Shown: positions 4,692 through 34,470 of the stretch, one piece after another | Layout of the letters: every line of letters starts with the position of its first letter | Position numbering within the stretch: position 1 is the first letter of the stretch | Assembly (NCBI GenBank): GCA_029260655.1 | Contig: JAJDCU010000057.1 | Span: 1-55,734 of the forward strand | DNA from: Phycisphaeraceae bacterium | Lineage (GTDB): Bacteria > Planctomycetota > Phycisphaerae > Phycisphaerales > Phycisphaeraceae | Direction: 5' to 3' | Length of the DNA stretch: 55,734 nt | Translations under genes and position numbers: made by a program | Notes under the pieces: generated by a model | What the model was told of the DNA's origin: nothing | Databases searched by the model: none | Seen by the model: the letters and a program-made list of their open reading frames with translations, nothing else

Positions 4692-6392
4692 ATGCCGTTT
4701 TTTTGGAGCGCTCTTACCGAGATTTTGATCCTGCTGGCCGCGGCGCTGGTGCTGGGCGCGCTGTTCGAGCGGCTTCGGCAAAGCGCGATCCTGGGCTACC
4801 TCCTCGCCGGGCTTCTGCTTGGGCCCGGCGCGCTGAACTGGGTCCACGGCGACGAGTTCGTCAGGGACTTCGCCGAGCTGGGCGTGTCGCTGTTGCTGTT
4901 TGTCATCGGGCTGGAGTTCTCGTTACGCAGGCTACTAAAGATCGGCGCGGTCGGGCTTGGCGGGGGCACGCTTCAGGTCGTGATCACCTGCTTGTTGGGC
5001 GCGGGTGCCGCTTATCAATTGGGTGTCGGCGGGCCCGAGGCCCTCGCCATCGGCGCGATCGTTTCGCTTAGCAGCACCGCCTGCGTGTTGCGTGTCCTGG
5101 CGGACCGCGCGGAGATGGACAGCATGACCGGCCGGATCTCGCTGGGCGTGCTACTTCTCCAGGACGCCGCGGTGGTCCCGCTGGTTCTGCTGGTCACGAT
5201 GCTCGGCGGCGAGCCTTCGGCCGGGGCGATCGCCAAGGGCATGGGATGGAGCGTCTTCCTGATCGCCGGGCTCGCCGGGGGGCTCTACCTGGTCAGCCAC
5301 TTCCTGCTGCCCAGGGTCATGCGCGATCCGACGCTGACGCGCAACCGCGAGTTGGCGATCCTCCTCGCCGTCGTCCTGGCGCTGGGCTCGGCCTGGTTGG
5401 CACACCGGCTGGGGCTCTCGCCCGCCATTGGCGCGTTCATCGCTGGCATCCTCCTGGCCGAGTCGCCCTTCGCCGTCCAGATCCGCGCCGATGTCGGTGC
5501 GCTGCGCGCCCTGTTCGTCACCCTGTTCTTCACCTCCGTGGGGATGCTCGGCAACCCCGTGTGGATCGCCGAGAACTGGGCGCTCATCGCAGGGACCGTC
5601 GGGCTGATCATCGTCGGCAAGACGCTGGTGACCACGCTTGTCGTCCGGCTGTTCGCATCCAAATTGCGCCACGCCGCCGGCGCTGGGCTGTCGCTTGCAC
5701 AGGTCGGGGAGTTCTCCTTCGTGTTGGCGACGATCGCTTTTAACAGCGGCAACGGCGTGCTGGGCGAGCAAACCTTCAAGCTCTTCGTCTCCGTGACACT
5801 GGTGACTCTGTTCATGACCCCGTACCTTGTCGCCGCCGGGCCCGGGTTCGGCCGGTTCCTGCAGAACCTTGCACGCCTCGGCGGGATATCCAAAACCGCC
5901 GAGACCGAGCCCGCCGCTGAGGGCTCCACGCGCATCGGCCACATCATCGTCATCGGCTTCGGCCCCGCCGCGCAGCGGATGCACGCCAAGATGTTCAAAC
6001 GTCACGGCAGCATCCTGGTCATCGACCTGAACCCGCGCAACCTCACACTCGCCCGCGGCATGGGTCTGAGCGCCCAGGTCGGCGACGCGACCAACCCCGA
6101 GCTGCTGCGCCACGCCGCCGTCGCCGACGCCGCCATCGTCGTCATCACCATCCCCGACCACCGTGCCGCCACCACCATCGTCCGCCACATCCGAAACCTC
6201 TCCCCAGACACCCCGGTCATCGTCCGCAGCCGCTACCACGCCTTCGCCAACGACCTGCACCGCGCAGGCGCGACCGTCACCGTCGACGAAGAAGACTGGA
6301 TCGGCAGACGCCTGGGCCTGGAAGTCAATCGGCTTCTGCGCCGCCAGGCAAACGCCGACCCGGGCGAGGGCGTTGATGGTTTGGACCGCTAG
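4692..6392 (+). CDS. KefB/CPA2-type monovalent cation:proton antiporter with TrkA-N domain
   Basis: An inner-membrane antiporter of the CPA2 family, expected to exchange K+ or Na+ for protons. Seen: about 12 hydrophobic segments in residues 1-390, with family landmarks SAILGYLLAGLLLGPGALN, DFAELGVSLLLFVIGLEFSLRRL, SLSSTACVLRVL, GRISLGVLLLQDAAVVPLV and LSLAQVGEFSFVLA. A cytosolic TrkA-N (RCK) nucleotide-binding domain follows from about residue 415, beginning HIIVIGFGPAAQ. The architecture matches KefB, KefC and YbaL; length is normal at 566. The last 116 bp are duplicated downstream at 7587-7702. The gene is followed by an alcohol dehydrogenase after 76 bp. Confidence 0.92.
   Translation: MPFFWSALTEILILLAAALVLGALFERLRQSAILGYLLAGLLLGPGALNWVHGDEFVRDFAELGVSLLLFVIGLEFSLRRLLKIGAVGLGGGTLQVVITCLLGAGAAYQLGVGGPEALAIGAIVSLSSTACVLRVLADRAEMDSMTGRISLGVLLLQDAAVVPLVLLVTMLGGEPSAGAIAKGMGWSVFLIAGLAGGLYLVSHFLLPRVMRDPTLTRNRELAILLAVVLALGSAWLAHRLGLSPAIGAFIAGILLAESPFAVQIRADVGALRALFVTLFFTSVGMLGNPVWIAENWALIAGTVGLIIVGKTLVTTLVVRLFASKLRHAAGAGLSLAQVGEFSFVLATIAFNSGNGVLGEQTFKLFVSVTLVTLFMTPYLVAAGPGFGRFLQNLARLGGISKTAETEPAAEGSTRIGHIIVIGFGPAAQRMHAKMFKRHGSILVIDLNPRNLTLARGMGLSAQVGDATNPELLRHAAVADAAIVVITIPDHRAATTIVRHIRNLSPDTPVIVRSRYHAFANDLHRAGATVTVDEEDWIGRRLGLEVNRLLRRQANADPGEGVDGLDR
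6277..6363 (+). repeat. 87-bp direct repeat, copy 1 (3' end of the antiporter gene)
   Basis: Identical base for base to 7587-7673 (constant offset 1,310). Similarity continues without gaps past the stop codon, at about 70% over the next 60 bases, and then fades. Confidence 0.95.
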
Positions 6393-31889: not shown

Positions 31890-32540
31890 TCACAGGCCGC
31901 CGGGCTTGGACTTCTCGACCTTAGGCAGGTCCTTGAGGTTTGACAGCCCAAAGACTTCCAGGAACCCCTTGGTCGTGCCGTACAACATCGGCCGACCGAT
32001 CTCCTCGGCCCGGCCGACGATCTTGACCATGTGACGGTCCATCAGGCTGCGTAACACCTCGCCGCAGGCCACCCCGCGGATGTTCTCGATCTGCGCCCGC
32101 ATGATCGGCTGCTGGTACGCCACGATCGCCAGCGTTTCCATCGCCGCCGGGCTCAGCCGGGTTTGTGTTCGGCTCTTGTGCAGCTCGGACAACACATCCG
32201 CGTACTTCGGCAGCGTCAGGACCTGCAAACCCCCGGCGACCTTCTCGATCCGGAAGCTCCGCCCGGTTTCTTCGTAGACCTTGTTCAGCCCGTCGGCCGC
32301 GTCCTGGATTGTCTTGATGGCAAATCCGCCCAGCAGCTCGCCGAGCTTCGCCGAGGTCATCGGCCGATCGGTTGTCAATAGCGACGCCTCGACCTTCAAC
32401 GCAAGCTCATCCGCCTGCTCCTGGCTCAACGGCGCGTCGTTTTGCCCGTCCGCCTCGACGGCCGGCTCCTGGGCCTTCTCTACCGGCTGCGCCGCCTGCG
32501 CGTCGGGCCCATCCTCGGTGACTTGCTGGGTGTCGGTCAT
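31890..32540 (-). CDS. scpB: Segregation and condensation protein B
   Basis: ScpB joins ScpA and SMC in the condensin that compacts the chromosome. Seen: after a 60-residue acidic, Gln/Ala-rich N-terminus, two winged-helix domains: ALKVEASLLTTDRPMTSAKLGELLG and IQDAADGLNKVYEETGRSFRIEKVAGGLQVLTLPKYADVL, then the diagnostic RLSPAAMETLAIVAYQQPIMRAQIENIRGVACGEVLRSLMDRHMVKIVGRAEEIGRPMLYGTTKGFLEVFGLSNLKDLPKV. The ATG at 32540 is preferred to the ATG six codons earlier. No scpA is visible in the window. Its C-terminus is short (SKPGGL). Confidence 0.94.
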   Translation of the reverse strand: MTDTQQVTEDGPDAQAAQPVEKAQEPAVEADGQNDAPLSQEQADELALKVEASLLTTDRPMTSAKLGELLGGFAIKTIQDAADGLNKVYEETGRSFRIEKVAGGLQVLTLPKYADVLSELHKSRTQTRLSPAAMETLAIVAYQQPIMRAQIENIRGVACGEVLRSLMDRHMVKIVGRAEEIGRPMLYGTTKGFLEVFGLSNLKDLPKVEKSKPGGL

Positions 32541-32634
32541 ACCCACATTGTACGCCAACCGCCAGCGAATGGGGACTTCAGCTTGGAGGTTACTTGTACG
32601 CCGGTTACAGATTACTGATATCAGGAGGCCCCTA

Positions 32635-33021
32635 TTATTCGTCAGGGGCCGCCTGCTTCATCCATTGCGTAAGCTTTTTGATCACCTTCGGTGAGAGCAA
32701 GTGGTTGCTGCGACTTTCCATTCTCAATAACCCCCGGACAATCTTGACAAGGCCCAACTCATCCATTTCGCCGATCCATCGGCTGGCCTTGATAGCCGAT
32801 GCAGAGAAAGATTGTCGGTGCCAGAGGCAGTATTCGGACTCCTCATTGGCATGGATTCCAGGCTTGAACCGGACGTGGTCCACATTATTGATGCGAACGA
32901 CGATTTCGTCGCGTTGCCATCCAGAGGCCTGCAATTCCCGGATCAGTGCTTCGATGGACTTTCGTCCGGGAGTGAAACAGGGGATGCAGAAAAATTCGGG
33001 TGATTCCGAAGATCCAACCAC
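32635..33021 (-). CDS. Unknown protein paired with the Panacea-domain gene
   Basis: A 128-residue frame from a GTG at 33021; an open run upstream reaches the TGA of the neighbouring gene in the same frame, so the true start may be earlier (no in-frame ATG is present). The sequence (PGRKSIEALIRELQASGWQRDEIVVRINNVDHVRFKPGIHANEESEYCLWHR, then a helical KASRWIGEMDELGLVKIVRGLLRMESRSNHLLSPKVIKKLTQWMKQ) matches no family I know, although the 'I..M..L..M...LG' helical end could be a DNA- or RNA-binding helix bundle. Its position, 54 bp downstream of an antitoxin-domain gene, makes it a candidate toxin or accessory partner. Base composition is AT-richer than in scpB. Confidence 0.5.
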   Translation of the reverse strand: MVGSSESPEFFCIPCFTPGRKSIEALIRELQASGWQRDEIVVRINNVDHVRFKPGIHANEESEYCLWHRQSFSASAIKASRWIGEMDELGLVKIVRGLLRMESRSNHLLSPKVIKKLTQWMKQAAPDE

Positions 33022-33075
33022 AACGACTTGCGGGTGTGTGTCATCACCGATCTGGTAGAGATGGCCCCGTATACT

Positions 33076-33639
33076 TCACGCCCCCGTCGCTTCCAGTGTC
33101 AGCCTCGCCAGATTCTGACGGGAACCTTTCTGTCGTTCGTATGCATCCAGGAGGTCCTGCCAGGATAGATCACTGTTTGTGTCTTTTGCTTTCTTCCAGG
33201 CATACCCAATGAATGTGTTGGGGTCGTGGAAGTAAGCGTACAAATCGTCATGGCTCTTGGAGTTAAACAACCGGAACGCTTCGTCCATCGCGTCTAACTC
33301 GGATTGGCAGAACTCATCGGTATCAGGCGTGTAAGTACGCTTTACCCCTGCGCTGGGGCGTGGGCCATTCAAACTGACAACCTCAAACAACTCTTTCGCT
33401 TCATGCCCCTGAAGGATACGCCTTGCCCGATCATAAGCGGACTTGGCGACCGGGCCATGGGGCCAGGCTTCCAGCGTACCCCCGATTACTGGACGGCCAG
33501 TTTCAGCCACATGGATCGCATCGACCAGAGCATGAATCTTGACGAAGTCGTAAATGTCAAAAAGCGCATTGATGCGCTTCATGACATAAGCCAGCACCAA
33601 GTCATAGCGGTAATCGTTGAAAGGAGCGAGTTGCGTCAT
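33076..33639 (-). CDS. Panacea (SocA/DUF4065-type) antitoxin-domain protein
   Basis: A protein carrying the DUF4065/Panacea domain, known from the SocA adaptor and from antitoxins that neutralise diverse toxins. Seen: FDIYDFVKIHALVDAIHVAETGRPVIGGTLEAWPHGPVAKSAYDRARRIL, the core pattern (K..Y...IH...GRP......AW.HGPV...Y). The helical C-terminus (LDAMDEAFRLFNSKSHDDLYAYFHDPNTFIGYAWKKAKDTNSDLSWQDLLDAYERQK) is consistent. Start at the ATG 33639 keeps the domain intact; ATG 33735 would add 32 unlike residues. The stop TGA (33076-33078) is directly followed, in frame, by the next open reading frame. The AT-rich character of the region suggests horizontal transfer. Confidence 0.82.
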   Translation of the reverse strand: MTQLAPFNDYRYDLVLAYVMKRINALFDIYDFVKIHALVDAIHVAETGRPVIGGTLEAWPHGPVAKSAYDRARRILQGHEAKELFEVVSLNGPRPSAGVKRTYTPDTDEFCQSELDAMDEAFRLFNSKSHDDLYAYFHDPNTFIGYAWKKAKDTNSDLSWQDLLDAYERQKGSRQNLARLTLEATGA

Positions 33640-33756
33640 GGTTAAGTCCGGCCCAGAAACCAAACGCCAGTACGACAGATTATACAGGGAAAGAGCTTTG
33701 GGGTCAAACAAAATCCTAACATCCACCCATTCCATTCTTCGGCTTGCCCGACTCGC

Positions 33757-34470
33757 TCACGCCAGCGCGCCGCTGGAGCGCAGGGAGGCGACCCGTGGCT
33801 GGAGGTTTCGGCCGGGGCAGACGGTCGGGCCCAGCTCGCGGTGGGTGTAGACCCGACTGACCGGCACGCGGTACCGGCCCATCAGGTGCCGAAGCGATAC
33901 CTGAAGCGACCGTAGCTGCGCCTGGGAGGGGGACTGCTGCTCGAAGTTGCCCAGGAGCATGACCCCGATGTTGTGCGGGTTTTGCTGGCTGACGTGGGCG
34001 CCCTGGTAGGCGACCGATCGGCCTTGGATGACCCGGCCGGCCCGGTCGATGACGTAGTGGTAGCCGATGTCGCCCCATCGCCGGTCGCGTGTGTGGATGT
34101 TGCGGACCTGTTCCAGCCGGGCACGGGTGCTGCGCACATCGGTGAACCAGACCGGGGTGTGGCCTTCGTGGTGGACGGTGATCCGGCTGACCCCGCTCAT
34201 CGGGTTGACCTTCGATCGAATCGGCCCCGAGCGTGTCCACCAGGTGCGCGGCAGGACCGGCCAGGACCCGTTAGCCGACGCTGTGGGGCTGGGTGCTTGT
34301 GGCCTGGGCGCTGCGACCGCCGGCGTCCCGCTTGAGGTGGAGGTCGGCATGCTGGGATTCCCGGGCCAGGGCGTTCCGGGTCGGCGGACCAGGCTCGTCG
34401 GGGACTGCGAGCAGCCCGTAGCGAGTAGCGCCAGCCCGGTCATCAGCATTTCACGTCGGGTCATCTTCAT
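33757..34470 (-). CDS. Tat-lipoprotein N-acetylmuramoyl-L-alanine amidase / PGRP-like
   Basis: A type 2 amidase (PGRP-like) expected to cleave the lactyl-peptide bond of peptidoglycan in the periplasm. Seen: a twin-arginine plus lipobox leader (MKMTRREMLMTGLALLATGC), a Pro/Ser/Thr-rich linker, and the amidase core: ITVHHEG (first Zn His), RRWGDIGYHYVIDRAGRVIQGR, GAHVSQQNPHNIGVMLLGNFE, and YTHRELGPTVCPGRNL (later His and Cys ligands). The combination of two His and one Cys fits a three-ligand zinc site, as in PGRPs. ATG at 34470. TatA is encoded 1.8 kb upstream on the same strand. It may act in cell-wall turnover. Confidence 0.86.
   Translation of the reverse strand: MKMTRREMLMTGLALLATGCSQSPTSLVRRPGTPWPGNPSMPTSTSSGTPAVAAPRPQAPSPTASANGSWPVLPRTWWTRSGPIRSKVNPMSGVSRITVHHEGHTPVWFTDVRSTRARLEQVRNIHTRDRRWGDIGYHYVIDRAGRVIQGRSVAYQGAHVSQQNPHNIGVMLLGNFEQQSPSQAQLRSLQVSLRHLMGRYRVPVSRVYTHRELGPTVCPGRNLQPRVASLRSSGALA

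Follow-up and report, generated by a model that had tools for sequence, protein, structure and literature searches.

Is a Panacea antitoxin gene that runs past a single TGA into a second open frame one broken gene, a gene read through its stop, or a toxin-antitoxin pair whose two genes happen to share a frame? The question is raised by positions 32,635 to 33,639 of contig JAJDCU010000057.1 from a Phycisphaeraceae bacterium; the whole stretch of DNA analyzed, 55,734 nucleotides long, is referred to as the window. Panacea (DUF4065) antitoxins pair with dozens of toxins and are encoded first at most loci (Kurata et al. 2022, PMC8832971), and MazF/PemK is among the commonest folds of the Panacea network (PMC10440598).

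Structure and insertion of the locus

On the minus strand, the panA frame runs from 33639 to 33076 and is closed by a TGA (33078 to 33076). As originally predicted, the same frame goes on directly beyond it, reading SIRGHLYQIGDDTHPQVVVV... for 146 codons up to a stop at 32637 to 32635 (minus strand). No ATG was seen in that frame near the panA/panT junction, again as predicted, and its earliest ATG, GTG, or TTG codon is the GTG at 33021 (33019 to 33021), which gives a protein of 128 aa. PanA (187 aa; 33076 to 33639) is a Panacea (SocA-like) antitoxin that matches PF13274 with 44.1 bits against a Pfam cut-off of 25.7 (E 4.5e-11 to 6e-11) from an ATG at 33639, and its ortholog at the related locus L002 starts at the equivalent ATG. 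SocA of the SocAB system likewise has a Panacea domain, but PanA differs from it in reaching 25.9 bits with the NCBIfam SocA model (NF047745), below the equivalog cut-off of 190. A sigma-70-type promoter-like site (TTGACC-17-TATAAT, a consensus match at 11 of 12 positions; 33679 to 33707, minus strand) lies 39 nt before the panA ATG, and L002 has TTGATA-16-TATACT 38 nt upstream of its panA ATG; about one such match would be expected by chance within the scanned stretch.

The pair is flanked upstream by an N-acetylmuramoyl-L-alanine amidase-like gene (33757 to 34470) and downstream by an scpB-like gene (31890 to 32540), both on the minus strand and both named from sequence. In relative terms the block is AT-rich, as had been noted, with a GC content of 52.8% versus 62.4% for the window and a GC3 of ~0.62 versus 0.86 to 0.88 in the flanking genes. 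The amidase and scpB genes are directly adjacent, without the pair, in three congeners and several other genera, which marks the pair as an insert. In the window (31890 to 34470) and in genome G488 the pair occupies the amidase-scpB interval, which is empty in G431, G482, G467, and other genera. The pair occurs in both the window and L002; it was either gained once or lost elsewhere.

Two genes in five genomes

Scanning bacterial genomes with the partner protein returned one relative, L002 (Phycisphaeraceae), which is 72% identical and occupies the same chromosomal site. Searches of genome samples from the order (400 genomes), the class (397), and the phylum (392 and 246) led to three further loci, one (L004) from the same family as the window and two (L053 and L054) from other families of the class. 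Among the sampled genomes the partner is rare and turned up only within this class, and no relatives of it were found in plasmids, phages, or viral contigs. Weak matches in G449, G437, and G704 were dismissed as spurious and had no Panacea gene.

At all five loci panA lies directly upstream of the partner as a separate gene (n = 5 genomes), and the Panacea model matches every one of the five upstream proteins (window, L002, L004, L053, and L054). The two genes overlap by up to 4 nt or are separated by at most 3 nt, and the flanks differ between loci. In L004 the partner begins at a GTG that runs into the panA stop (GTGA), and in L053 and L054 it begins at an overlapping ATG (TGATG); in L002 the panA stop is a TAA, followed by a 2-nt spacer (AC) and a partner in frame -1. 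The proposed comparison of the TGA position in homologs thus finds separate genes in all four relatives, overlapping in three and in another frame in one. The frame is shared in the window because the spacer (AGT, 33073 to 33075) is 3 nt long instead of 2 nt. Judged from these comparisons, the common frame of panA and panT is a coincidence of spacer length.

The same comparisons bear on two explanations that take the shared frame at face value. If the TGA were read through, a PanA-PanT fusion would be made besides free PanA, with the partner as a C-terminal half of the Panacea protein, and the unbroken frame across the TGA in the window agrees with this. Frame continuity was found in none of the four relatives, however: L002 has a TAA and another frame, and L004, L053, and L054 have overlapping separate genes. 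Folding of the junction RNA gave no unusual structure (z, +0.9 and +1.3), and nucleotide conservation at the junction, striking at first sight, proved in a permutation test to be no greater than in the rest of the operon. A single ancestral gene split by a recent nonsense mutation would also leave a shared frame in the window, which is all that speaks for it. Against it, no fused homolog occurs among the relatives found, every relative has a separate start or start-position codon for the partner, and the two-gene order of panA before panT persists in further families of the class. With neither a fused homolog nor a junction structure, readthrough is very improbable and a split gene slightly more so, and these two suggestions of the original prediction are not supported.

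Its other suggestion, that the partner could be the toxin of a Panacea module, agrees with the linked order in five genomes, the Panacea protein in five of five, the low GC content, and the empty site in relatives. Across the five genomes the genes lie no more than 100 nt apart, and occur in at least two species, without a longer operon being conserved around them, as is required of a PanAT locus. The pair resembles the PanAT systems (PMC8832971) in having two genes less than 100 nt apart with the antitoxin first, a Panacea domain in the first protein, a small partner, and a presence in several species. It differs from them in a partner family absent from Pfam, NCBIfam, PADLOC, and PHROGs and in the AUA/AUC start position seen in two genomes. 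By gene order and domain content the pair fits the PanAT class of type II toxin-antitoxin systems, for which toxicity of PanT and its neutralization by PanA are predicted.

The start of panT

Where translation of the partner begins is less simple. The N-termini of the relatives read MIRGVWQL (L004), MIGDVYTI (L053), and MDGQIYRL (L054), to be compared with (ATA)RGHLYQI in the window and (ATC)RGHIYQI in L002. Scored as mean BLOSUM values with residue 1 excluded, the ungapped N-terminal alignment gave +9.7 at the ATA of the window and +11.7 at the ATC of L002, while all other offsets scored -8 or less. The alignment therefore places ATA (33070 to 33072) and ATC on the ATG or GTG start codon of the related panT genes, so that the partner (32635 to 33072) is ~145 aa long rather than 128. 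A GGGGG tract (33081 to 33085), which may act as a Shine-Dalgarno-like sequence, ends 8 nt before the ATA, and its L002 counterpart ends 7 nt before the ATC. The GTG at 33021 makes a poor start because it stands behind an invariant His-Pro (residues 14 and 15 of the frame, 33031 to 33036; 5 of 5 homologs) and because the GTG of L002 falls on another codon. With no Shine-Dalgarno-like sequence before this GTG either, the start of the predicted 128-residue protein is very probably wrong. Our first idea, a one-base insertion that lost an overlapping GTG start, was dropped because the ungapped alignment favors ATA/ATC.

The missing start codon could be an artifact: if a one-base insertion at the junction were an assembly error, the true start would be a GTG overlapping the TGA. 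The assembly is a draft of 83 contigs, and GTGA is the arrangement seen in L004. Yet the GTG of the window is out of the partner frame, L002 also has no GTG there, and ATA/ATC is the better start fit in the ungapped alignment. Moreover, over ~15 kb of the window aligned to relatives, no protein was split over two frames, repeat-like matches aside. We therefore regard such an error as improbable.

The AUA/AUC start position is the sole unusual trait of the window pair. AUA and AUC are near-cognate codons which, in work by Hecht et al. in 2017, reportedly served as poor translation starts in Escherichia coli. We suggest tentatively, at somewhat less than even odds, that AUA/AUC is the real, conserved start of panT and that coupled near-cognate initiation just after the panA stop acts as a throttle, holding a toxin of a previously undescribed family far below its antitoxin.

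Selection and possible decay

Between the window and L002, dN/dS was 0.054 (panT) and 0.107 (panA); dS was saturated. The low ratio of panT indicates purifying selection and, with the L002 homolog at the same site, marks the downstream frame as real coding sequence, a partner that was a working protein through most of the divergence of the two lineages. At synonymous sites the two genes of the pair have diverged much more (1.7 to saturated) than scpB (0.5) or the amidase (0.65), probably because third positions in the flanking genes are strongly biased (GC3 of 0.86 versus 0.6). In L002 a TAG interrupts the partner frame (L002:3394-3399) ~15 codons short of its common end with the window; that copy may have lost its C-terminal helix, or its toxin may be decaying.

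Toxin genes of toxin-antitoxin pairs often decay, and panT might have been silenced by independent losses of its start, one in the window lineage and one in L002, leaving a conserved panA and an early pseudogene. The lack of ATG, GTG, or TTG at the expected start in both genomes would be explained in this way, as would the TAG near the end of the L002 partner. On the other hand, the 145-codon frame of the window shows no other damage, and dN/dS is ~0.05 over the whole divergence, for which dS is saturated. It would be a coincidence for two lesions to strike exactly the third position of the start codon while the window copy has no other, unless the change were ancestral; in that case the gene would have been kept for a long time with an ATH start. 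Because the window frame is intact, a weak ancestral start that still works is slightly favored over loss in both lineages, and we consider silencing rather unlikely.

The nature of PanT

The partner had no match in Pfam, NCBIfam, PADLOC, PHROGs, or PDB sequences. None of its five members matched PF02452 (PemK/MazF) at an E value of 5, falling short of the cut-off, so the partner is not filed as a member of that family. A structural model of PanT built from two sequences was weak (pLDDT 61), and a second model, of the truncated L002 copy, was of unusable quality (pLDDT 44). The best two VIA-align matches of the model with pLDDT 61 were MoxT (Z 4.5, model residues 2 to 125) and MazF (Z 4.1, residues 3 to 122), values in a range of Z 4 to 5 that may arise by chance; kinases formed a plateau below them at Z ≤3.5. 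Foldseek searches against the PDB and viral models returned nothing significant, only kinase-like noise.

The genome of the window carries a second Panacea pair (L100; contig C22, about 5,300 to 6,371), where a Panacea gene (E 1e-19) is followed by a 135-aa partner. The family of the L100 partner is linked to Panacea genes in six of six genomes, and a transposase-like frame adjoins the pair. L100 resembles the window in its order of a Panacea gene and then a MazF-like partner, whereas its partner belongs to another toxin family, starts at a normal ATG, and matches the window partner only weakly by profile (P 0.0009).

Compared directly with PemK (34 sequences from the phylum), the partner profile aligned colinearly over ~95 columns, a match that is not significant (P 0.01 to 0.07, about the level of the best shuffle). 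Against the L100 partner family, it scored above 150 of 150 column shuffles at the P value of 0.0009 given above, and all control families remained below 1%. The L100 family in turn matches PemK with a profile probability of 86% (P 4.8e-6). This chain through L100, together with the weak fold matches, favors a diverged MazF/PemK-type mRNA interferase. We infer from the profile alignment that the His-Pro of PanT is the counterpart of the Arg-Pro motif of MazF/PemK. From sequence profiles and the model, PanT is likely a diverged MazF-like mRNA interferase with predicted RNase activity. That the family is unrecognized, as the original prediction put it, is true of Pfam, NCBIfam, PADLOC, and PHROGs; by the profile chain it is probably a diverged MazF-like family. 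The profile and structure searches it proposed likewise named no library family, but they did yield an indirect link to PemK via the L100 family and fold matches on a model with a pLDDT of 61.

Two MazF-like Panacea partners that inhibit protein synthesis, the PanT proteins from P. moraviensis (Pseudomonas) and B. ruminantium (Bifidobacterium), have a remote similarity to EndoA/PemK/MazF without a CDD match (PMC8832971); the window partner, compared with them by description, differs in that its match to PemK is indirect.

Proposed mechanism and implications

Our preferred reading, to which we give a probability of about 60%, is a PanAT-type operon of two genes in which a low level of AUA-started, MazF/PemK-like PanT would be neutralized by PanA, with the shared frame coincidental. 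The promoter-like site ~40 nt upstream may drive panA and then panT. Ribosomes finishing panA at the TGA would restart 3 nt on at the AUA, aided by the GGGGG tract. With AUA as the start codon (AUC in L002), the toxin would be expected at a very low level relative to the antitoxin. PanT would act as an mRNA interferase of the MazF/PemK fold, bound and neutralized by PanA.

For the Panacea network, the pair adds a partner family not listed in profile libraries, and it illustrates that a picture of one frame and one stop may come from spacer length alone. If initiation at AUA/AUC is true, it would offer a simple means to set the toxin-to-antitoxin ratio, and gene callers that accept ATG, GTG, and TTG would miss such a start, reporting a protein of 128 aa without its first strand.
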